Source of the DNA: Owenia fusiformis
Lineage: Eukaryota > Annelida > Polychaeta > Sabellida > Oweniidae
Assembly: GCA_903813345.2 (NCBI GenBank)
Contig: CAIIXF020000007.1
Span: forward strand, 1,495,730-1,559,729
Direction: 5' to 3'
Length of the DNA stretch: 64,000 nt
The translations under genes were made by a program, and so were the position numbers. Position 1 is the stretch's first letter; the number at the start of each line of letters is the position of its first letter. Below the pieces are notes generated by a model. That model was not told the origin of the DNA. It made no database searches and saw only the letters and a program-made list of their open reading frames with translations. Positions 2,677 to 46,700 of the stretch are shown in pieces.

Positions 2677-4714
2677 CTCTATACCATAAAGCATGTACAC
2701 CCCCTCCATAAGTTTAGCAACTGGAAGTTATTATATGATAGCATATCAAAGTCTGTCAATGTTTAAACCTTGATTATGTTCCTTATTACCATATTTCAGA
2801 TACTTCGATTCTATATGCCAAAAATAAACAGGCTTTAATAAGTGATTCAAAGGGGTTCGAGTTGCCAAACTTATGATGGGAAGTGCTATCATTCATAAAC
2901 ATAAACCATAACTACATGAACAACATTAGGAAAGAAAGGCACCTGAAATACAATTTTGAAAAATGTTATTAGTACACATACATGTATTACACATACATGT
3001 GTTTCCGATTGCTGACCACACATACCCTAAATTGTTTTATGGTGTATGGCAATGATAAGCTGTAAAAATAAAAAATGGAAGATAATGAATATGTTTAGCA
3101 TATTATGATGTCACATACAGTGTTAAGATTTATTTAGAATAACACTTTTTGCTATAATGATACACATTTTCTATTTGACCCTAGCAACAAGTTCAACAAC
3201 TGAAGTGTAAGGTGCCACGCCCCCTTTCTTGAATTTTTAGGGGAAGGTAAAGAGAAAAATCAGAAAAATAGATACTTGTACTTTTTATTGAAACTTGTGC
3301 AAGAAATATTTGCTAACATCATCAGTGAAGTTTTTAATCAGGTTTTATACACCATAGGCCCTAACTGTTTTTTTAACGACTGATTAACTATCGACTGATT
3401 GAGAAATTTTGAAGAGAAATTATGTTCTTTTAGGGACAAATTATCCCATATCTCTACCAAATTTTGTTGGATAAGACCCAAATTTTCAGGAATTCTTCAT
3501 ACATGCCTTATTAATATATTCACAATGTTTCATTATACTTGCATCATCCTCAAATGAGATATTAAATAGTTTCAAGCAAATGGTCAAACTCTGACTCGAA
3601 AATGATAAAATTTGATGACTCAGCACTTTTGAGCCTGCTTTGCAAGGGTTCACAAACTTTTTTTCACATGCCTTGGGGTCCCCTACAAGAATCTAAAGTC
3701 AAATTGAATCTAGGTGTTATGGACACAAATGGCCTTGGCCGTAGCACTATAAGCAATTATACTTGTTGGCATCCATGAATACATGAAATACATGTCTCAA
3801 CTAAAATCTAGGTAATGCATGTATGAGCAGATTAGCTGTCCTCAAGGAATAAGCTTAAAATGTACTTTGTCTAGATTTATTATAAGGAATTTCCAGCATC
3901 GGAAAAGTCACCATATTGAATGATCACAATATAGCACCCAAAGGGCAGTATAAAAACAGAACATCCCTCAGGAAAATTAATCAATAGGTTTACTGTGTAA
4001 CCAAATACTTTGATCCCTTCACCTTCACTTCCACTAAAAACATTGAATATATGGATGGGAATCCATACACAAGGACCTAATATCTTCACTTCGAACAATC
4101 ATTCTCAGAATTTTTCTGATCAACTACATTTCAGAAGACAGCAAGATTAGCAGCATCTACTAGCTGTGCAAATAGATACTACATGTATGTGATGCTCACT
4201 AGAGTGTAAAAGTCAAGGTCCTGAAATTACTACTTTAAGCAAGCAGAAAAATAAACATCTAAATGTCATATATAGGATGAACAGAATGTCATTCCTCAAA
4301 TGCATAAAATATCAAATTTCCAATAGCATGTCTTTCTATAAATATGGCATTAATAATATTCCAGGAGAACCGATTTCCGAGAGTTCTAATATGTACAGTA
4401 TATAAAACAATATTTAATACAAGCTTCAGGAATATAAAACTTTGTGAGAAATGATAATTGAGAATTATTCTAAAATTAGAAGGTAGTATTTTTGGGTTCA
4501 ACATGTACAAGGTGTATATATAGAACAACAGATGACACACTAATTTGTCTTTCAGTGTATACAAATCCTTCCTGAAATGTGATTGATTTAATACAATAGA
4601 TTTAGCCTTGCATATACTGGTAGAACTCGACCCCAGGAGACTATATAATGAAGTCTAGCAAGCCATGCTACTACAAAATTCTACAATAAAGCATGCTGAT
4701 GAAATATATTTTAC

Positions 4715-4768: not shown

Positions 4769-7700
4769 CTGCAATATAACATTATATATATGTATAAACC
4801 AATATAAGCAATTCAAAGGGTGCATATGTGTATGAATTTGATAAACTTGAACAGTGCTAGTGCATTCAGCCTGTTAATAATGGAGTTATACATAATACAT
4901 ACAATGATAATGATTAAGGCATTAAGGCATGAAACACTTGTTTAAATTCCCTTTCTCACCTGTATCTGGCGTTCAATTGTCTTGGAGTGGCGGACTGCCT
5001 CTTTATGGGCCTTAATTCTTGACTCTAGTTCTTCACGGATTTTGTTTGCCTCTACTCTCTTTTTGCCTAATTCACTCTCAAGCTGCAAGGGAATACTTGT
5101 ATTGTAACAGTATTTAGAAAAATAAACAAGGCATTAACATGCAAAATTTTACCATCTGCCATTTGTTGCAGATGCTGAACAATGACCTCCGAACATCGAC
5201 CACCAAATACTGATGCAGACTATAACAATATGTCAACACTTGTGGCGGTGACATAAAAATCCGAGAAAATACGATATGATCTCCATTTAAGAACTTTACA
5301 TTTATGCATTTTAATACTGATTGCCTCATTTGCTAATTCCATTACTTCAAATGCAATTTTGTTTTAAGACTAACAAACAAAATACATGAATTCAAAGAAG
5401 GCATTTTCATTTTAACACTTATAATATTCAACTTACATGTGTCAGCTGGCTTTCACTCTCAAGTAACATTTTAAGCCTTGGTTTCATCTTGCGATGTATC
5501 TCTCCATATTTGTATATGGCATGAATCCAGAGGCAAATAGAAGCTGCTGCTTGGCTGATCAGACTGAGCACCTCGGGGTGGAAATTCTCATTGTAAACAA
5601 AGTGACGAAGTTTGAAGAAAATATCATCAGGAATATTATCCTTATCGTAGAATTCTAGATCCCGGAAAAAGTTTTCTCGAATCAGTAACAATTTTCCATT
5701 CTCCCAACTGAAAGATGATAGCATATATGATTAACACTTAAAAACTCATTTAAGTTTAATTTTACTTTTTTGAAAGATGATTTCTACAATTATTGAATGA
5801 AGCTCCTTAAAGTAATAACACTACTCATATTTACACTAAATATACTGATATGCTAATTAACTAACAGTGCCATACTTACTCTTGGGGCTGCCTGAACATA
5901 AGACAGAGAGCATTAGTAACACTTATGACATCTTCTGGTGGTGCCCTGTAGCTCTTTATCTCTTGTAAGTCCCCCTGTTGCAGGGCTTGAACAGCTTCAA
6001 TTGCGGCATTGTATGTTGGTTTCACTTTATCAAACTCAGCGTTTGCCTCTTGGCGCAGTCGATCTAGTTCAGGCATCATCTTTTCAAGTTGTCCTTCAAC
6101 ATCTTTACATTTCTCTAGTGACTGGAAGTAAAGTTAAGGTTTCTTCATAATATTTCGAAGTTATGTACTGAAATAAACATACACAGAGAATTTCAGAAGA
6201 ATGATTTGATAAAAAAAGACGCAGCCAATAACTAGCTCAATATAGCAAATCTTTCTGTGGCTTACCTTCACATAGTAATTGCTCTGTAACTCCACAGTTT
6301 ATAGAAGATCCTTATGTAACATACTTCAATATAACAATCTTTCTTCATATAGCTTACCTTCATATAGCGTTCTTTCTGTAACTCCACAGCCTGAAGTAGA
6401 TCCTTGATTTGCTCTCTGGCTGCATGTAGCTTTGGTTCTAGGTTAGCCACCTCACTTTTGTACTTGTTAATTTGAGTGTAGGCTTCCTGCATCTTACTTA
6501 GGCCTGCCTCATGTTTCTCAATCTTGGCCTGCAATTTATTAACACAGCACCATTAGCATTACCCCTTAGCCCAAAAGTGAGTGTAATATTAACACAGCAC
6601 CATTAGCATTACCCCTTAGCCCAACAATGAGTGCAATATTAACACAGCACCATTAGCATTACTCCTTAGCCCAACAGTGAGTGCAATATTAACACAGCAC
6701 CATTAGCATAACCCCTTAGCCCAACAGTGAGTGCAATATTAACACAGCACCATTAGCATTACCCCTTAGCCCAACACTGAGTGCAATATTAACACAGCGC
6801 CATTAGCATTACCCCTTAGCCCAACAGTGAGTGCAATATTAACACAGCACCATTAACATTACCCCTTAGCCCAAAAGTGAGTGTAATATTAACACAGCAC
6901 CATTAGCATTACCCCTTAGCCCAACAGTGAGTGCATTATTAACACAGCACCATTAGCATTACCCCTTAGCCCAACAGTGAGTGCAATATTAACACAGCAC
7001 CATTAGCATTACCCCTTAGCCCAACAGTGAGTGCAATATTAACACAGCACCATTAGCATAACCCCTTAGCCCAACAGTGAGTGCAATATTAACACAGCAG
7101 CATTAGCATTACCCCTTAGCCCAAAAGTGAGTGTAATATTAACACAGCGCCATTAGCATTACCCCTTAGCCCAACAGTGAGTGCAATATTAACACAGCAC
7201 CATTAACATTACCCCTTAGCCCAACAGTGAGTGTAATATTAACACAGCAGCATTAGCATTACCCCTTAGCCCAACAGTGAGTGCAATATTCTCTGACTCA
7301 AATGTATCATTAACTTACAGATCTATGCAAGTCCATGATATCCTGGTTTATTAAGTACTCAGAATGCATCACAGAGTCAAGTTTATATTTGTTGGTGAGC
7401 AATGACTGCATGGCTCTACGTAATCAGAAGTTAAATAGTAATTTCACAATGTAAAACAAATCCATTCAATCCTACAAAGGGTACTGGTCTACTGGATATG
7501 ACAATGACTATTCTCACTATTTCAACATACCTTTTCACATTTGACAATATATGCGGCCACCACTTTGAATATATGAACAAATTCCATGTATGTGAGAGGA
7601 GAAAAGAATTTGTAGACAAGTTTCTGATGAGAGAACAGCTGCTCAACAGCTATTCTGGAGGAGAGATGGACGTACGCCATAGCCGTTGCAATGGCCTGTA

Positions 7701-10700
7701 TATGCTCTACTATGTTCTCATGCCACTGGACAGGGATCTGGAACATGAAGGTGTACATCTTGATTCATATAAATTAAACTGATAACTAAATCATAAAATA
7801 ATGGTACTCCCAGATCAACAAGTAATTAGAAGAACTGGACCTGAACATTTTACTTCTCTTGAGAAGCTGTCGTGCAAAACTTTTCAAATGACCCTTGTAG
7901 GTTACTATATTCATCTTATACACACACAGATTCAAATATTGTGACCAATGCTTTGTTCTTTTCATTCAAAATTACAAAAAATCTTAAATCCTTAAAGGTA
8001 AGAAAATCTCTATGAATTCTTAAAAGGTAATGAAACTCCACAAATCCACAAAAATAAGAAAAGGGGAGGTTTAGAATGACAGGGTAGGTTCTGTTAAACA
8101 AACCATTAATTTGCAATGGGCTTACCCTGCATGATTGATCCCTGAGCCATTGAGTGGCCACATTGACAAAGGCATCGTGTGTCCAGGGCCTGTAGACATC
8201 AACACTGCTTGAGTAGTGGAATAGACCTGGATACCTCATCACCTTTTGCTGAATGCTTTCACAGCCATCTGGACCACCTGATGCTGCACACAGAGATGCA
8301 AGCATTCAAAACATCAATTTTTGAAATTCTAATACTCATAAATGTTGTGTTTATTAAAATAAAATAAGTTCAAGGCCACCAAATTAGAGAACTGTCAAAT
8401 ATCAGGAAATTTGCCAAATACATGTTGAAGTGAATTAAACTAAGTTGTAGTATGTTAAATTGGAAATTTTTATACCTTTGTAAGTTAAACACACAACAAC
8501 ATGCAGATTCTGTAGGACTCTCTGTGTAAACTTCTCAAAATGTGCCTGCAGTTTATCCACCTTCTTAGTGGTCACTTGTCCAGGGGTCATCTGGGCAGCT
8601 ATCATCTGAATCTCTTCTTCAGAGTAGAGATTTGGACAGGATCCCTCAACCATGAATGAGCAGACATCTTGCAATGCATCCTGGCCTAAATCCTCCTTTA
8701 CAAGTAGGACGACGTTCTTCCCATGTATGGCTGCAGATTTGCTGAGTCGCTTCATATGTTCATGAAGGACTTTCCTGTTGCTTTGAGGGTCTTGTTGGGG
8801 CTTTGGTTCATAGAGTTTGCAGTGGGCAATGTGGGCAGCTAGCCGTGTAAGGGTTGATCTTCCTGTACAGTAAGTGAGGCTAAGAAGGAGGGCATGGCCA
8901 CCTTGTAATGCCTAGAAGACAATATATGAATATGTATACAGTTTGCAGTGGGCAATGTGGGCAGCTAGCCGTGTGAGGGTTGATCTTCCTGTACAGTAAG
9001 TGAGGCTAAGTAGGAGGGCATGGCCACCTTGTAATGCCTAGAAGACAATATATGAATATGTATACAGTTTGCAGTGGGCAATGTGGGCAGCTAGCCGTGT
9101 GAGGGTTGATCTTCCTGTACAGTAAGTGAGGCTAAGTAGGAGGGCATGGCCACCTTGTAATGCCTAGAAGACAATATATAAACATGTATACAGTTTGCAG
9201 TGGGCAATGTGGGCAGCTAGCCGTGTGAGGGTTGATCTTCCTGTACAGTAAGTGAGGCTAAGTAGGAGGGCATGGCCACCTTGTAATGCCTAGAAGACAA
9301 TATATGAATATGTATAGTCATAACCATTATGGAAATATACAAGCCATTATATTTTGTTTAAATTCATATATTTTTCATGAAACAAACTTCATTAAAGTAT
9401 GTGATATTATGAAGGCCAAGTATTTATGGTATTATCACCTATACTCAAGAGAATAGAATTCAAACTCCTAAAACCAATACTTTTTTCTAATATCTGAAAA
9501 GTGATTTAATCTATATGTGTTTCCAAAAGCTGCCATTCATATTTATATTCCTAGAAATATAAGAAAATAACTCAACAAAGCACGGCTAAATGATACCACA
9601 TAATTAGTTTCTATTCTGAAGTTAATTACAAGAAATACTTCACAATTACATGTACTCACCAAAACACGACTGAGATGTGCCACATGATGGATGGCCTCTC
9701 GGAAGAAGACTAGATCGTACTTCTGACTGGTGGCCATGTTGTATGACATCAGACAAGTCTGTAGACACTCGGACAGTACATACTCGCTACACTCTACATA
9801 GCCTATAGACAAAATACCGAACGTGTATTTAATTCTTTGTATTGCCATATTGTTTATCCAATCAGCTTCGTTTTGTTCAAAATACTTCATGTAAGATGTT
9901 GTGCCTGAGTTACATGTATTTATTAAATTTAATCTTTCTGGATGTGCTAGAAGGGTTATTAATACCTCACCCAACAATTTGAAATTTTGCTTTCATGCAC
10001 CAATGTACCAATATACTATTACAGTCTCTTTTAAAATATTCCTGAGTAAAAATACTGCCTTAACTTATCTAAAACCTTGTTTTGAATATTTCTGAGCAAA
10101 AATACTATTCCTAACTTACAAAATCTTTTTGAATTGGCTGATAAGATACGTTGATGAGAAAGTTACACTAATATGTAAGAGATTATCTTAGATGTAACAA
10201 GATGAAACACTAACCTTTCTCTGGGTCCTCCCCAAAGGCCTCTTTATGCATTGCCATGATGAACTTGGTGAAGATGATGTTGGTCAACTCTTCATCTGGC
10301 TTCTTAATCTGTTGGAAAGAACAAATTACAAACTTTTACTCATATCCTACTTCTTTAATACAAGAATTACCAATATGATTTCCAGTTCCATACATGAATC
10401 TGTCAAAGATTATATATCTTTATTAGAAAAATTTGTTATGTACATTTAAAGTCACAGGTTTGTATTCTGAATCTATGATTCAATGCAAATGAAATATTAA
10501 TGCAAATGAAATATTTCTTTTAATCAATAAATAACATGTGATGGCAACCAATGATGGACTACACAACTACTACACAATAATGTTTAACACTCTCAAACAC
10601 CAATTTTCAATTTAGAATTGACAAAAGTAAACAACCTACCTGATCCATGGATAGAAGAGGCCCACTGTAATGCTCCTGTTCCCGGTCTTGAATAAGACCA

Positions 10701-31700: not shown

Positions 31701-34700
31701 AACATTTTCTGTGAATACTGTTGAAGGATTCCACTGCTGAACTGTTCCACTTCCACAGGTGGTAAAATGGATTAGTGTTTATCAGCATCCTAAATTTCGA
31801 TATATCTATACTTCAGTCTAGGCTACTATATGAATGAAATCGAAGTAAAGGAATAAGTGAGATTTCTGTTTACCTTAAGCTGTTTGGAACTCTTTGCAAC
31901 AAGAGAACTATCTGTAGTTGGTAAATCATCATTTTTCTCTTCCTTTCTCTCATGTAGGACATTCCAGGCCCCCGAGAGAATCTTGTAGCATGTTGTCTTG
32001 CCACAGCCTGCAGGGCCCAGTAGAATAACTGGTCTTCTCTTGTATTTAATAGCAGCATTCAGTTGCAGCATCTGAGAATGAATGTGCATGTACAATGGAT
32101 GATATTATTTAAATCATTGTATGTCTACTATCATGACTTATAGCCAGCTGAGGCCACATGTCGATACAAGTAAAAACCTTGATTAAATGATGCAAGTAAT
32201 CCCAGAAACTCTTTTAGACCTCATATGAGTCAAACTACACACCTTGTTAACGTGAGGCTGGTAGACCTGTAGATTATCCCGAGTCATCTGTTCTTGTATG
32301 GCAGTGATAAGGTCAGGGTCATAAGTGACAGCGTTCTTCATCCAGCGTGCACTATGAGGAAACATATCCTGTAATACACTCTTAAACTGCCCCTGATCAT
32401 CAGCGTCCTCTATACGTGGCTCTAGGTAACTTACTAAGCCATTCACTATTGTGTATTCCTCCTTCAAGATATCATCAGGGGGGAAGCTAAATGGAGCTTG
32501 GCCAGTTTCTGGAACCAAAGGCATATCTTTTTGATTTATTCAAGCATGAGCTAAGCATCTATTATCATAGATTTCTATCTTCATTTAAAAACAATCTTGT
32601 TTTGCAAATATGTCTTATACAATACACTTTATTTTTAATTTCATGAAAAATGGCCAGTGAAGCATGTACATTAAGGTAAAACTAGCATCTAAATCACTGA
32701 ATATACTTTTTGAAGACCTTAATAATTGTAATTTACGATGAGAATAAATAAAAATCTCACCATCTCTTGAGTCAATTTCCATTTCATGCATACACCATGG
32801 TGAGTTCAGTTTCTTGCTAGACAGTTTTATTACACATTTTATGGTAGAAAGGCCAAAGTCATAGCTAGGTTTAGCTGGAAGCTGTGTCTTGAGCAGAGAG
32901 AAAAACAGCAACAGTTTCTTCCTGATATCAGTGTGTTTAATGAAACCATGGCAGAACAATGACATGTCCACAATTAATTCTGTGTTGGGTACTATCATTG
33001 CACAAGGTCGCATTAACAGCTGAAAACAAAAAAGTATGTTTTAACACTACTCAAGGGGCGAGGAGGAAAATTCTCAATAAATGGTGTATAGTTGGTTTGG
33101 CAGCATTTTCAGTTAGGGGAGAGTCTTGGATGAAACTTCCACTTAGGTGATAGCTTCACAGAGTGGTAGGAAGTTCTTTTATTTGAGGAGTTAGCCCCCC
33201 ACCCCCCAAAAACACCCCACCCTGGGGAAAAAATTGTTCACACTAAATAACCTTAGATATTTTGATGTTTGTAAGTGACATACATAGATGTTATATATAT
33301 GAATCACTTGCAGTATAATTGATGCTGATAACTCCTAAAGAATTTGAAAATTTGTACAAAGTATGTACCCCAGGGGGCAAATTCGTGACTCATTTTCTTA
33401 CTATTTTGATTCTAACTTTTCAATTAGACACTGTAAGAGGTCGGAAAAATTCATGTGAAGTGCCCAATAGCAGGGTTAGTAACCCTGAAAGATGCAAAGC
33501 CATGGAAGAGGTAGGAGCTGAGAAAAAAATTGTTGATTTTTCGAAAAATTTGACATTTTTGACAGCTGGATTTTGTGTATGACTATAGCTGACCCTTATA
33601 ATTTCTAGATCCATCCCTCTATGGTGATATTTATGGTTTTATAGTGTGAAACTAAGATGTAAAACATAATTTAGATGGTTTTTAAGGAAGTTTAAGGTTT
33701 TAAACAAGTCTAAAATTTGAAAAATTGTAAATATAATGTTTCAAATTTATGAATTCCAGGTATAGCCATGGCTGACCCCTATAGTTTCTAGATCCATCCC
33801 TCTATGATGATATTTTTGGTTTTATAGTGTGGAACTAAGATGTAAAACATAATTTAGATGGGTTTTAAGGAAGTTAAAGGTTTTAAACAAGTCTAAAATT
33901 TGAAAAATTGTAAATATAAGCTTTCAAATTTACGAATTCCAGGTATAGCCATGGCTGACCCCTATAGGCTCTAGATCCATACCTCTATGATGATATTTAT
34001 GGTTTCATAGTATGGAACTAAGATGTTAAACATAGTTTAGATGGGTTTTAAGGAAGTTAAAGGTTTTAAACAAGTCCAAAATTGGAAAAATTGTAAATAT
34101 AACGTTTCAAATTTACGAATTCCAGGTATAGCCATGGCCGACCTCTATAGTTTCTCAATCCACCCCTCTTTGGTGATATTTATGGTTTTGTAGTATGGAA
34201 CTAAAGATGTAGAACATAATTTAGATGGGTTTTAAGGAAGTTAAAGATTTTAAACAAGTCCAAAATTTGAAAAATTGTAAATATAAGGTTTCAAATTTAC
34301 GAATGTTAGGTATAGCCATGGATGACCCTTATGGCTTTTTCATCCATACCTCTATGATGAAACATATATTTTTAGAGTGTGAAACTAAGAAGTAAAAAAT
34401 ACCGAAGATGAATGTTAAGGAAGTTTAAGAATTTTAACAAGTGCTATGTTTGAAAAATTGAGAAATATCAGGTCTCAAAGGAGCATGGAAAGTATTGCAA
34501 CATATTTCAGACAGTCATATGTTAGATTTTGTCTGTTTCCTGAGGATTTAAGCAGGTATATATGATAGGCCATTGCATTACCTACAGGAAAATAACTCTT
34601 AGAGATGATAAAATAGTTTGGACTTTGAGACAGCGAAGGTGCAAACAATCCACCCACATGTTTTTTCAGAAATGTTGTCCTGATTTTCAAGCCCTTTCAC

Positions 34701-37700
34701 CCCTGCTTTTTCAATTTTTGTTGCATCAAAATGTTGCGTTTTGAGACATAGTTAACCCATAAAAAGGAATAATAAATTTCTTTTAGATAAAGCAGAATAC
34801 AATATTTTCCTGTTATTTTCCCATTTGGAAAACTCGTGTGCTCCATTACTTTCAGCTTAATTTTGGTCACCCATATTTTAATATCTTTTAAACCCCTGAT
34901 GGAATGCATTATTTCTTTAAAGGGGTTAACTGTGTGTCAAAACACAACATATTGATGCATGTGGGTGGGTTGTTTGCACCCTGTCTCAAATAGAAATTAT
35001 TTTATCATCTCTATGAGTGCTTTTCCTGGAGGAAATGCATTGGCCTAACATATGCACCTCCTCAAATCCTCAGAAAATAGCAAAAATCCGACATGTGACT
35101 GTCCTAAATCTGTTGCGATACTTTCAGTCCTCCTTTACGATTTCAGGTATTGCCTTGGATGTCTCTCATTTTGAATGTACATGTATGACTTTTTAGCTTA
35201 GAAATTAGATGTTGAAAATATTGTGGTTAGGTTTGATCCATGTTACAAGTATTGTTAAAAGAAAAATCATTAGAGTTGAGGACCTTACCCTAGAGTTCCT
35301 AAGGGGGTGAGAGGTTAATAAATCCCCCCCCCCTATAGTGTAACTGCTCTTAGGGATTCGTATACAGTGTAGTAATTGATTGATTAAATGGATTATAACT
35401 AATTAATTATTACTTGATATTCATAATGTGATATAGCATTTTTACTTTTTCACATCAACATGTTCGATGTGATGTTCTACATTGTCAAAATACATAAAGA
35501 CATGGTTAATTAAAAGAAACATGATTTCTCTATATTTTGTTATGCCCATACTGTAATTAAGCAATGATCATCTCCTAATACAAAATATTATTATAAATTA
35601 TCAAATTATAATAACTACACTCCCAATAAAATAATTTGTCATCAGGCAACAGTAATTATTTGGTAAAATAAGGATTATAAGGATCATACCCCGCTGGGCC
35701 TAGAAACTCTCGTTAGTGCAATGAATTTAGGAACTCCAGGGTAAAAGGGTCTGGTCACACTAAAATCTTCATGTAGATCAAAAAAGTATATATGGTGATA
35801 TATATGATCAATATGTTTCAAACAAACAGACATTGTAGAAATTTTTTACATACTGACTTTGCAGATGACATTTTCTAGCAGTTGAAGAATTTTTTACATT
35901 TATTGAAATGACAGTCATAAAATTAGAATATCAGTGTCATTTGATGCAAATTACTGCAGTCCCACATATTCTCCTGCTGAATGTAAAACAGAGTGAATAA
36001 GTTTAAAATCAGTCTCTTCAAGAGTGGAATTTAACAGGGGATTTCAGTTATCGTTTTCACAGATATTTAAGTTCTCTCCAAAAGTTCCACTTAAAAACAA
36101 TCTTGACATTTGGCACACTTTTAGAATGCTGCTTTATTAAATTTCTTTGTAATCTTTGAAAATTTGTATTATATGACTTGGCCAAAAGGTATTCATATTT
36201 TTAGGTAATGGTGTAATTTCTTCTTTGGATTAAAGTTCAGAGTCTCGGAGTCTAATATGAAATCTATTCTTTGGGCTCCTTTACTAGATTTGATGAACTA
36301 GTCAAATATAGCTTTCCAAAACTCTCCAAATTTCAACATATAAGTTTGTCATAGCCATTGCATCGATCACGAAAGTTTTATCAATTTGTGGTATGGTTTC
36401 ATCGATCTCCATTTCAAACCCCTTTTTAAGTTCTGATTTTACAGATAAGATAGATGATCATTGTCAAATGAACTGTTTGTATCCATATAAGATCATAGTT
36501 TACTCACCCATAGCTAGGCAACGTGTGTCGAATTCCAGCCAATTCAATACTTCATATAACTGCATTCCAAATTACTACTCTCATAAACCCAAGGTCAATT
36601 TTAGATTCTAGAGAAAGTAATGAAACCAATAAGCTGATCAATAACATTGACTAAAAATCTATAAATAGCATCATGGGGAATAGCATGCCAAGTGCTTGAA
36701 TTTATGTGGATTACTCATTTGGTAGACACCTTTATCAAATGTTAAAGTGTTGTTGATTTTTAAGTTGTACAAGCAAAGTGTCATTGGTGCTTTCTTTTCC
36801 TGACATAGTATTAACATTGTGGTAAAAACTATCAAATGTACCTAGTACAGTAGTTCTAGTTCATCATCTTGTATAAATGATATATCATCAGTGAGACCTG
36901 TATATCCCAACATCTGACTATTGTGAATACCTACCAATCATCCCAAAACCTGACTAATCTGAACACCAACCAATCTGAACACTTTTCCCAGTCCAATTTT
37001 TCCTCCAATTGACTCCTATGTTTAAAAAATTGAAATCTGAACACAGTGAACACTCATATTTGAAAAAGTAACCTGTCTAACTTGAACTCTTTTTTACCAA
37101 ATATCACATATTTCTTACAAAATTGCTCAAATATTGTCAGTTTAACACTGAATTGTTATGATATCAAAACTTTTGAATTGGATTTTGGAATGCTATTAAG
37201 CTTTTTATGTGGTCAGTATAAATATTATTAATATTTTTCATTGAGAATGCATTCATATTTCTTCAAAATCCAGAACTTGTATTGTAGATGTAAAAACCTC
37301 AAAATTCAAACACTCCTAATTAGAATGCTTTTAGCTGGTCCAAATACCAGTAGCATTCAGATAAGAGAGATTTTACTGTAGTTCACGACTTTTCACTCCA
37401 TCTATATGCAGCAGACTAACTGCTGCAACAGGTATATATTCTACACTTGGTCCCAGCTATGATATCATAGTTGATACTATTATGCTCATAACCTTCAATT
37501 ATCAGGGCTCATTCAAGGCTGTACCTGAATAATGTGAATTTGAGACCAATTTTGAGATCAATTTTTCAAATTTTGCACTTGTTTAAAACCTTGAACTTCC
37601 TTCAAACTCATCTTAGGTGTCTTTTACATTTTAGTTAAATACTCTCTACTATATATTTCATCCCTGAGGTATAGATGTAAACACCATAAGGGTCATCTTT

Positions 37701-40700
37701 GGCTATACCTGAAATTCATAAATTTGAAATCTAACATTTATAGTTCTTCAAATTTTGGACTTGTTTAAAACCTTAAACTTCCTTAAAATTCATTCTGGAT
37801 ATGTTAAATCTTAGTCCCACACTCTAAAACTGTATATTTAATCATAGAGGTATGGATGTAAAAACCATAAGGGTCAGCCGTGGCTATACCTGGAATTCGT
37901 AAATTTTAAACCTTATATTTACAATTTTTCAAATTCTGGACTGGTTTAAAACCTTTAACTTCCTTAAAACCCATCTAAATTATGTTTTACATAATAGTTC
38001 CATATGGCAAAACCATAAATATCATCATAGAGGAATGGATCTAGAAACTATAGGGGTCAGCCATGGCTATACCTGGAATTCGTAAATTTTAAACCTTATA
38101 TTTACAATTTTTCAAATTCTGGACTGGTTTAAAACCTTTAACTTCCTTAAAACCCATCTAAATTATGTTTTACATCTTAGTTCCACACTATAAAACCATA
38201 AATATCATCATAGAGGGATGGATCTAGAAACTATAGGGGTCAGCCATGGCTATACCTGGAATTCGTAAATTTGAAACCTTATATTTACAATTTTTCAAAT
38301 TTTGGACTTATTTAAAACCTTTAACTTCCTTAAAACCCATCTAAATTATGTTTTACATCTTAGTTCCACACTATAAAACCATAAATATCATCATAGAGGG
38401 ATGGATCTAGAAACTATAGGGGTCAGCCATGGCTATACCTGGAATTCGTAAATTTGAAACCTTATATTTACAATTTTTCAAATTTTAGACTTGTTTAAAA
38501 CCTTAAACTTCCTTAAAAACCATCTAAATTATGTTTTACATCTTAGTTTCACACTATAAAACCATAAATATCATCATAGAGGGATGGATCTAGAAATTAT
38601 AAGGGTCAGCTATAGTCATACACAAAATCCAGCTGTCAAAAATGTCAAATTTTTCGAAAAATCAACAATTTTTTTCTCAGCTCCTACCTCTTCCATGGCT
38701 TTGCATCTTTCAGGGTTACTAACCCTGCTATTGGGCACTTCACATGAATTTTTCCAACCTCTTATAGTGTCTAATTGAAAAGTTAGAATCAAAATAGTAA
38801 GAAAATGAGTCACGAATTTGCCCCCTGGGGTACATACTTTGTACAAATTTTCAAATTCTTAAGGAGTTATCAGCATCAATTATACTGCAAGTGATTCATA
38901 TATATAATATCTATGTATGTCACTTACAAACATCAAAATATCTAAGGTTATTTAGTGTGAACAATTTTTTCCCCAAGGTGGGGTGTTTTTGGGGGGTGGG
39001 GGGCTAACTCCTCAAATAAAAGAACTTCCTACCACTCTGTGAAGCTATCACCTAAGTGGAAATTTCATCCAAGACTCTCCCCTAACTGAAAATGCTGCCA
39101 AACCAACTATACACCATTTATTGAGAATTTTCCTCCTCGCCCCTTGAGTACACTGATATCTTGGTTGTTGAAATGACTGGAGATCTCAACAAGACATAGA
39201 CATGCAATGAATGATATAACAACTGTTATAACTTAAGGTTTCTAAGAGCAATATTGTTATCTCAGCTATTAGATCTATTACATATGTCATCATTATGATG
39301 AAAATGATCAAATGGATAAATACATCCATCTAACAAACAACAACCCAATTCCCGGCAAATGATCCCAATTGCATATTTTATAGAATTTTCTCACCCTTAG
39401 AGAATCTGGGATGTGATGAAAAGTCTGTCGTTCAGGATCCAATGTCATAAAACATCCGTATCCACCAGCTGCTCTGATCAGGTGACCATTTAATAGGACG
39501 TTCCCAAGGTAACGAGGCTCATACATTGTATGAGGTAATAGTTCTTTGTAGTCTTGATGTTTCTTCCTCCTCAATCCCTTTTCTTTGTTTTGTATCTTAT
39601 ACAACACATGCTCTGCAAAGTATTGAATATAAATGATGATCTATATAAACGGAAGCTAGAATATTGTTTTTATCCAAAAGTAGTTAAGAATACAATATTG
39701 AAAGAACTAAAGAAATAAATTCAAAGAGTTTAAAAGCAGGACAATGCTAACAGGCAGTTAAAGCTAGGAGAGCCATTTGCTATCAGAAATGAGACGGGCT
39801 GTTTTTAAATTAGACAAAAATTACCATAAAACAGAGGTGGCGGTCTGTTTGATTTGTATATCTCTGTTTCTTTGATATCTATTTCTTTCTCTATAGAATG
39901 TCTACGTCTCAGCTGTCTGTCCTGAATGAATGTGTCCTCAAAATACGTATTCATGTCATCATCCTGGAAAAGACACATGAATCAATGAACAGTCAAGATT
40001 AGAGTGCAGTCAGTACTGGCCAAGAGCTGGTTACTTTCAGTCTTGACCATTTCATCTTTTCAGCATGTACGGGGGAAATAACTGCATTTTCCTTGTCTAA
40101 CATTGTTTCCTCAAATCATCTAGCATCTATGGGGGTACAGTAAAGTAATAGGGGGTAAAAATAAAGATACCAAGGGTATTTATGAATAAATGCTTGTCCT
40201 CTAGCACCAAAGTATGAGAAATTCTGAATGTACTTTATTGACATCTTACATCTTTGCTCATCATTTTGGGAGACCTTAAATACCTCAAGACTGCATTCCT
40301 TATCTCGAAACAAACCCTCATTATACAACTCCTTATGTTACTCACAGGTTTTCTAATTCATGAAATATTATTAATCTGATTTCTACCTTGAAGCCATGAG
40401 GCACTGTTGCCTGTCTTTCTAGGAGGTTTTCCCTGGGTGGCATAGAGTGGAGAGTTGTCAGTGAGTTCCGCCTTATAATCTTAACATCTCCTGGTTTCTA
40501 AAAAGAGATAATAATAGAATAATTAAAAAATTGGAAAAGTTTATGCTACTGTTCATTCTATGCAGTTAATTTAAGATGATTTAAGATGAGCAAAACTTGA
40601 AATTATGGTAACATTGTAATCATCAAAATACTTTGTCCATCAAACTGTAAATCAACAATGAAAAATGCAGATTAACATATGCGCCAGTAAAAATGCGTCA

Positions 40701-43700: not shown

Positions 43701-46700
43701 GACTGCGACTTTGCCATGCTTAACATCTGTTCCAATTCCTTCTTCTTCGATTTCTCATAGTCAGCTTTCTTCTCCTCAGGAGTCATGGGGATGAGCTGCG
43801 TTTTTGCACGAAGGACCACATTGATGTCCATTTGGTACTTGAGCAATTTTAACCAATCGTAACTTGTCTGGTCAAGGTCATCTGAGTTCGACAGCAGCAC
43901 TGGAATAATGAACATATGTTGTAATAGTGCATCTCCTTGGTTATATTTATTTGTTCTCTGTATGATTTAAAGTTTAAAATTCAAGCTATACGTCTGCTTC
44001 ACCTGGAGGAGTTTCGTGTAAGTATACTTTCATGATAGGCATGAAGGTATTAGAGCTTTTGGGATGTGTGTGATGTCAGTATGTATGAAACAAGGTATTA
44101 ACATGCAAAATGTCACCACCTGCCATTTGTTACACACACCAAATGTTGAACTTCGACTGCCAGACACCACCACAAAAAAGTTGGAGACTTTAACAATATA
44201 TCACCACTTGTGGTGGCAACATAACAAATAATGCATATCAATTCATATACAAAGGCAGAAGTAAGAAAGGAAGATGACATACCATCCATGATGTCTCTAT
44301 AGTGCATACACTGCAGCACTAATGCACTAAGCAGGGTGTGAAGACGTTGCCTAGTGTCTGAGAGAGCATAATGGTTAGCTGAGGACCCATAACCCTGCAA
44401 GTTCTCCTGCATTACCTGAGTGTAACTAGCAACTGAAGAGTTAAGCTCCTTCCTGAAGTGAAATATAAAACTTGAATTAATTTACAAAATAACAATCAAT
44501 TGTAATATATATGTTCAGTCAAATCAGCATTATTTTCTTGTTTTATTTAATGTTCCAAATTATATTATTTAATATTGTTATACATCTTTCAAATCTCAAA
44601 TTTGGGAATTGCTTGTGATATATTCAAGGTCCCTCTGAATTACATTTGCAGCTATATAAAGTCCACCCAGAAGATTAAAGAAAGTGACATAAAATAAAAA
44701 ACCTCAAATATCAACAAATATATATTCGCTAGCATTTAAGGCAAGCATACATTACCTTATATCCTGTAATTTATCTATATCTGCTAACTGCAATGCTTTG
44801 AAAACATCCCTCTCCCACAAAATAGCCTCTGTTGTAAGGACAGATTGAACAGGGAACCTCAATAGCCAATGACGGAACTTGTGACGTGCCTCAATCTGTT
44901 CTTGAGGCTTGGTTTCTTTCAAGTTGTCCTCAAATGTTTCAACTTCTTTAAGAACGAGCACTGGTTTCATATTCCCTGGAATATGAATATTAATGCTATG
45001 CACATATAAGTGTTAAAAATGAATCATACCTTAAATGCAAGAATAATGCCCAATGTATAAACATGGAATATTTGAGGCATGGATAGAGCAAGTTGAAAAC
45101 AATGTCATAAACAATTTAAAAATACAAGACATAGAAATGTTCATATAAATAAAAAGAATTTACCTTCAAATGTCATAAACAATTTATAAATACAAGACAT
45201 AGAAATGTTCATATAAATAAAAAGAATTTACCTTCAAATGTCATAAACAATTTATAAATACAAGACATAGAAATGTTCATATAAATAAAAAGAATTTACC
45301 TTCAAATGTCATAAACAATTTATAAATACAAGTCATAGAAATGTTCATATAAATAAAAAGAATTTACCTTCAAATGTCATAAACAATTTATAAATACAAG
45401 ACATAGAAATGTTCATATAAATAAAAAGAATTTACCTTCTTCGAGCCTAGCTTTGGCACATCCCTGAAGGACAAGTGTCATGGTTGTCTTTATGATGTTC
45501 TCTATATTAGCTAGCCACTTGGTTGGCTGGGGGAAGGCCTCAACTTTAGTGTACAGTGGTATACTCTCACATAGTTCACCATGCATGTCTGTCACTTGCA
45601 GCTTACTGGCTATAAACAAAATTCAATTGGTACTTTTCAATTTGTCTCTAAAAGATAGTGTGTGCAATCATACATATCATGGCATGGGCTCAAAAATATG
45701 TGTTTACCAAATATGGAGTGTTATTTGTACAATGAACCAGTTGTAGGGACCTGCCATAATAGCGTTATATAATGGATAACATCACTGAAGATTTCTGCAT
45801 AGAGCTTGATCTGGGTTGTTTGACAATATTGTGAGAAGGTTTCAGTTATATTATCTTATGAAAGAGGCATAATCAAATGTGGAAAAGGAGATCCTTAGGT
45901 ATTTTAAAACAGGCAACTGCTATAGTTCCACTTACCATTTAATGCAAAATCCAGAGCTCGATTCATAGTTGCAACACCAGAGGGCAGGGCAAATGTCAAG
46001 TCTTTGATTCCAGGGAAACATTTCTTGATGAATGGCAATATGGCTTGTGGGTTACGTGAGATTCCTAACAGTTCTGTCAATTCCTGGTTGCTCAGGAAAT
46101 AAAGTCTTGGGAATTCTAAACGTGCCTTCTCAAACAGATTTTCAATGTCTTTCAGTATTTCTTCCTGTGATGACAAGAACAAGCAATAGACTTTTAATTT
46201 TTCAGCACATGTGCATAAAGTATGAATACATGAAGTGATACCCTGTTTAGCATATTGTATTGTATGAACAAAATATTATGGTCTCATATAAAAATGAGGT
46301 GATTTCCAGCTTAAAAACAAATGGGGTATTGTTTCAATTTCAGCAAGAAATCAATAAAATCATTTCATTATTTAAGAAATATAGACCGAAGAGCAGGGCT
46401 ACTATTTTCAAATACACCCCGCAGGGCTTGGCACAAGCGTTTTCTGTACTCCGAACGACCAAAGGGAGTAAGGGGTTCGAAAGTTTTTGTGCCTAGCCCT
46501 AAGGGGTGTATTCGACGATATTACACCTGCTCTGAGGTTTATATTACGATTTGAACATGAAAAGTCACAAGAATATTGCAAAATCATCAATTTCGATGCT
46601 CATTTCCACTTTTTTCATTTCTACTTCCGGTTGAGCTTTTGCACTGAACGAAACACTTAGTACAGAGCCAGGGCATTGATCTCGAATATGCCCCGGGTGA

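Follow-up and report, generated by a model that had tools for sequence, protein, structure and literature searches.

Tandem copies of an exon-intron boundary were given the name "mirages" in the Adh3 gene of amphioxus (PMC3087553). In the available excerpt of that paper, mirages of the amphioxus globin genes are described with units of 150-160 bp, on the acceptor side and on the donor side, under concerted evolution, with 6 copies in one haplotype and 3 in the other, and RT-PCR is taken to suggest that splicing was undisturbed. The accessible part of a paper on PGBD5 gives mirages of 60 and 108 bp and cites a case in troponin C (PMC3902484). Outside lancelets, no mirages by that name were found in the text accessible to a literature search which covered few subscription papers.

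The array described here lies in the genome of the annelid Owenia fusiformis, in a stretch of 64,000 nucleotides (contig CAIIXF020000007.1, positions 1,495,730 to 1,559,729), hereafter the window. The genome gave three matches to Eryth_link_C, the linker domain of erythrocruorin, which is specific to annelids (best E 5e-7). Mirages are apparently new to annelids, a known kind in a new phylum. As judged from the sequence, the anatomy of the array at 8810-9316 fits the definition of a mirage. The copies stand head to tail and repeat a segment which holds the real splice site, the extra copies would be intronic with the authentic exon left intact, and the cluster is homogenised within, with deviation in the copies at its edges.

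Anatomy of the array

Tandem Repeats Finder reported the array with a period of 126, 4.0 copies, 98% matches and a score of 979, in agreement with the sequence-only reading, in which the start of the AAA4 exon and its acceptor were repeated four times in a 126-bp unit. Copies followed one another at a constant spacing of 126. Read on the minus strand, a unit comprised 29 nt of intron, closing with TTGTCTTCTAG, followed by 97 nt of exon, and the first exon bases of the four copies were 8911, 9037, 9163 and 9289 (Table 1). The sharing of an exon piece had been read correctly, while its length, given as 33 codons, had to be changed to 32 1/3 codons (97 nt). The outer three exon pieces were identical to each other, and the real piece differed from them at +26 and +62, both silent, exactly the two silent differences that had been noticed before. 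Two further substitutions (-20 and -17) were present in the 29-nt intronic part of the 9163 copy, and the outermost copy deviated at -29/-28, which is the start of the original flank. CTAT marked each end of the original segment, and where copies meet, one C had later changed to G. When 641 bp over the array region were used as a query against the assembly (498 Mb, 525 contigs; very common words and withheld stretches skipped), the single match was the region itself.

Table 1. Coordinates of the array, of its exon and intron, and of a second array in the window (a slash marks the exon boundary)
Feature	Position in window	Strand	Remark
126-bp x 4 head-to-tail array	8810..9316	-	runs from the end of the intron into the exon
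Real AAA4 exon, 436 nt	8476..8911	-	Pfam AAA_8, splice-site scores, gapless join to upstream exon
Real AAA4 exon borders	innermost acceptor AG 8912-8913; donor AAAG/GTATAA after 8476	-	
Decoy exon copy 1, 97 nt, with acceptor	8941..9037	-	read-through reaches TAG at 8912-8914
Decoy exon copy 2	9067..9163	-	intronic part of its acceptor carries two substitutions
Decoy exon copy 3, outermost	9193..9289	-	original intron flank starts beyond 9316
Intron	8912..9659	-	748 nt now; 370 nt minus 378 nt of extra copies
Second array, same dynein gene, 68-bp x 5, donor GAAG/GTAAATTC	45101..45439	-	donor-side mirage

In the second array of the same gene, the first copy in the direction of the gene was the real exon end. 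In the window, a 50-bp x 15 array (6537-7290) in an intron of the same gene stopped about 12 nt before the acceptor, which was not included, and arrays in one SNF2-type region (L028, 2479-2874) and one dynein region (L011, 8472-8889, gene strand) likewise stopped near acceptors, while an array in another SNF2-type region (L029, 4487-4626) began 14 nt past a donor. Two 183-bp arrays in opposite orientation (33588-34479 and 37559-38610) were probably pieces of a repeat family.

The host gene and its acceptors

The array is located in a dynein heavy chain gene. Its exon matched Pfam AAA_8 (the D4/AAA4 motor region, E 5e-24), the dynein stalk was matched by two exons further along, and the closest solved chains to the exon were DNAH6 and DNAH12. 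The exon had been called a P-loop exon, which was right in position; the Walker A itself is non-canonical, with SLTYCTGRST against GVGGTGKQS in DNAH6. At 8852-8881 of the minus strand CTGRST took the place of GTGKQS and was preceded by an additional residue. This AAA4 loop probably does not bind nucleotide in the normal way, and since its Walker A is degenerate, the gene probably encodes a divergent dynein heavy chain.

The upstream exon ended at 9660 with the donor TTG/GTGAGT, and its join to the acceptor at 8911 reads ...HHVAHLSRVL/ALQGGHALLL.... Against DNAH6 the joined exons aligned with no gap at the junction and with E 4e-22, compared with E 1e-12 for the exon alone. Only the innermost acceptor (8911) yielded a continuous dynein. 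From each outer acceptor the frame ran for 41 codons and then reached the TAG of the next acceptor, just the truncation that had been foreseen for them. Use of the innermost site could thus be inferred for this array.

Position-weight scores were derived from exons that 5 or more paralogous loci supported, which gave 142 donors and 166 acceptors; the edges were set by a simple rule, so that some of them are wrong. On this scale all four acceptors of the array stood between the 63rd and the 66th percentile of the 166 acceptors. Because these scores are alike, strength could not pick among the four. Since the acceptors are nearly identical, the chooser would probably be position relative to the exon body, that is, exon definition. 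Two acceptor-like sites in the same intron, 9493 (83rd percentile) and 9550 (73rd percentile), scored higher, and the intact protein speaks against their use.

Exon-edge arrays in other genes

A search of the genome with the AAA_8 profile gave 76 matches, including repeated partial matches in another dynein. The region of that gene and 16 more AAA4 regions formed the dynein set (L001-L017), 16 regions picked from SNF2-domain matches formed the SNF2-type set (L018-L033), and the controls (L034-L045) were 12 stretches, each 5 kb long, placed at the 20.0 Mb position of contigs 1-12. Arrays were detected by Tandem Repeats Finder, an offset self-match detector and printed arrays; one array of L028 (L028a) and a 56-bp array of L017 were given by the offset detector and were absent from the lists of Tandem Repeats Finder. 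The arrays of L001 and L025 were known from the profile searches before the regions were analysed and are hence not blind.

In the regions examined, a total of 19 exon-edge arrays was obtained, 11 on the acceptor side and 8 on the donor side; this tally covers the dynein, SNF2-type and control regions together with the two arrays of the window and one in a kinesin gene. Such arrays were present in 6/17 dynein regions (L001, L005, L008, L011, L013 and L014), in 5/16 SNF2-type regions (L018, L023, L024, L025 and L028) and in two of the 12 systematically placed control stretches (L036 and L045). Copy number ranged from 2 to about 20, with 18 donors in L001 and 20 acceptors in L011 as examples. 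Both arrays of L008 and the second one of L018 (L018b) were older, with 79-93% matches. In L013 the AAA4 P-loop exon of another dynein was duplicated at its donor end (100 bp x 2, gene strand 3399-3591). In the control stretches, one array ended an exon of a malate dehydrogenase-like gene (Ldh_1_N, E 3e-13) and the other an exon of a C2H2 zinc-finger gene. Scaled up from two edge arrays in 60 kb of control sequence, the whole genome would hold thousands, though two counts leave a very broad Poisson range.

In a CHD1-like gene (L018 and L047, contig G000:C10) one intron was flanked by arrays on both sides. The join of its innermost sites aligned with CHD1 (chain 5afw_A) at E 2.5e-26, with one repeat copy and a single gap of one residue. 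The donor-side unit of this gene formed an in-frame repeat of 25 residues across most copies. In the kinesin gene (L049, G000:C2:23266359-23269174) a piece of a motor exon and its acceptor occurred in at least 18 copies with a spacing of 159 bp, in a region which stops short of the far end expected to hold the real exon.

Among five protein families searched genome-wide, regularly spaced partial exon matches were observed for AAA_8, SNF2 and kinesin. The Cpn60 search of the genome gave no tandem exon piece, and the myosin search gave only an unevenly spaced cluster, in which positions 18-84 of the myosin-head profile recurred 12 times over 8 kb (G000:C9:37986009-37994334), resembling mutually exclusive exons. 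In L002 (G000:C9:30940615-30941394) the whole AAA_8 was matched in a single open stretch, while the other dynein regions matched it piecewise.

No common unit sequence was found when 17 arrays were compared with the other loci analysed; only shared coding sequence or 22-bp matches (E about 0.005-0.008) appeared. A mobile element or dispersed repeat was therefore rejected, since the array at 8810-9316 had a single match in the genome and the units of the loci analysed shared nothing beyond conserved coding sequence and short chance matches.

Origin and fate of the copies

We consider it highly probable that the array at 8810-9316 is a mirage, in which a tandem duplication spanning the exon edge grew to four homogenised copies, and the decoys are lost together with the intron. 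A short tandem duplication would arise between small repeats (CTAT at this locus) over an acceptor and would then grow by unequal exchange or slippage, an expansion which would account for the three identical outer exon copies. When a tandem copy falls over an edge, one copy always stays attached to the remainder of the exon and the extras come to lie on the intron side. The gene stays intact if splicing takes the site closest to the exon body and removes the decoys with the intron, and the duplication would survive since splicing at the innermost site cancels its effect. As for any preference of edges over introns, duplications might favour exons, with survival limited to those that span an edge.

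The decoys at 8810-9316 are most likely neutral and spliced out. Repetition of the exon as coding sequence for the protein was rejected, with the in-frame TAG at this locus and with unit periods divisible by three in only 3/15 arrays (5 expected), namely this one and two in L005 and L018. Read-through of some arrays could lengthen the protein: that of the dynein region L005 was open across 46 extra codons, and that of the SNF2-type region L018 was in frame through most copies, with TAG in two. In the kinesin array an in-frame TAA ended each of the four copies read. Across 10 arrays with 79 interior units in all, 0.80% of splice-core positions were off consensus, compared with 1.38% of positions in the rest of the unit (rotation test, P 0.25), so no selection on the decoy splice sites was seen in this weak test with 7 core mismatches. 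A changed splice dinucleotide was present in 2/79 interior units. Since the decoy sites are almost all intact, their occasional use could be possible. Selection to keep or to translate the copies left no visible mark, the tests being weak.

Probable excess at exon edges and alternative explanations

The main set for enrichment was L002-L033 without L025 (208.9 kb), with arrays from the offset detector and units of at least 50 bp. L001 and L025 (arrays known beforehand), the 12 control stretches (exons not annotatable) and the window were left out, the window because cross-locus similarity annotated few exons there (32, of which only 9 with at least 2 supports). The cut of 50 bp removed three non-edge arrays of 48-49 bp (L009, L021 and L028b) and one of 38 bp, and arrays abutting an edge and not containing it (L011b and L029) were scored as non-edge.

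The arrays might have nothing to do with edges, being random duplications of which a few fall on an edge, a reading that we hold to be rather unlikely, with figures on both sides of it. When arrays were placed at random against the exons annotated by cross-locus similarity, 3.5 edge arrays were expected and 8/14 observed (P 0.007), edge and non-edge being judged by eye and unblinded from the printed arrays; among arrays of at least 95% identity, a cut for "young" arrays picked after they had been seen, the count was 8/10 against 2.7 (P 4e-4). The list from Tandem Repeats Finder alone, at any identity, gave 9/18 against 4.3 (P 0.01). With the 48-49-bp units admitted, the excess fell to 8/17 (P 0.018), which speaks for random placement, and stood at 8/13 against 3.1 (P 0.002) for identities of at least 95%, which speaks against it. 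Under an assumed density of one edge per 250 bp, chance would suffice for 8/14 (P 0.13) and hardly for 8/10 (P 0.003). Three of the eight blind edge arrays (L018a, L024 and L028a) at first had no cross-locus support and stood on judgement by eye. Counting them as non-edge favours chance (5/14, P 0.24; 5/10, P 0.09), and removing them gave 5/11 (P 0.14) and 5/7 (P 0.03). These three later gained outside support, strong for L018a (CHD1) and weak for L024 (SRCAP, E 0.017) and L028a (TPR_1, E 0.003, below the curated cut-off), and this, like the edge arrays in two control stretches, argues against random placement. An excess at edges among the blind genic arrays is therefore likely but not proven, since the cuts were post hoc and the edge calls unblinded, and its strength varied with the thresholds.

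As a second branch, the sequence-only reading had offered control by a poison exon. The outer acceptors would be used in particular tissues or stages, and the in-frame TAG would send the transcript to decay and tune the output of dynein. The outer acceptors are all intact and as strong as the real one, and each leads to an early stop, as such control would need. It found no support beyond this and is improbable in our estimation: donor-like sites within the unit reached merely the 12th-28th percentile, conservation of the decoy cores did not significantly exceed that of the remaining unit, like arrays occurred in many unrelated genes, and in the available excerpt on the amphioxus mirages RT-PCR suggested normal splicing (PMC3087553). 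The other branch, in which a recent duplication is tolerated since the last acceptor prevails, was better supported, by the gapless join with DNAH6, by the like arrays in unrelated genes and by the normal splicing that RT-PCR suggested for amphioxus mirages. That the animal carries one copy and the assembly made four of it is the least credible of these alternatives, and very improbable, because the copies bear private substitutions and edge arrays occur at independent, unrelated loci, with up to about 20 copies and internal variation.

Implications

On a wider scale, it is conceivable, and proposed here only tentatively, that exon edges act as hot spots for short tandem duplications in the Owenia fusiformis genome, with perhaps thousands of mirages. 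Survivors would accumulate at edges because an event spanning an edge is cancelled by splicing at the innermost site, while one that falls within an exon usually disrupts the protein. The arrays would then be natural competitions among identical splice sites throughout the genome, and a nursery for new introns. Mirages on both boundary types in many genes of this annelid genome would make them general in some animal genomes. Each array sets two to about 20 near-identical splice sites in competition, and because these differ in little but position, ordinary RNA-seq could reveal if the one closest to the exon body is preferred. The arrays could also show how duplicated splice sites become new introns.

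Comparison with known systems

Three described systems come close to the Owenia arrays, each in the available text of its sources. In human segmental duplications, internal tandem repeats are likewise found at exon-intron boundaries and can be spliced out (PMC2812944); there they give novel introns or alternative isoforms in recent paralogues, whereas in Owenia an old intron merely became longer. The Rogers model of intron gain, with AG/GT proto-splice sites and cases in Drosophila, likewise starts from a short tandem duplication which brings splice signals in each copy (PMC2891723). In that model the duplication begins within an exon and makes a new intron, while the Owenia duplication spans an existing edge and no new intron was seen.

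The amphioxus mirages of Adh3, of the globins BflGb6 and BflGb9, of PGBD5 and of troponin C are like the Owenia array in being minisatellite-like copies of an intron/exon boundary. As in the Owenia arrays, they affect the acceptor or the donor side, and the extra copies stand beside the authentic boundary; the excerpts give units of 10-160 bp, with AG/GT kept in many copies (PMC3087553, PMC3902484). Unlike them, the Owenia array belongs to another gene and to a non-chordate genome, and it is known from the sequence of one assembly alone.
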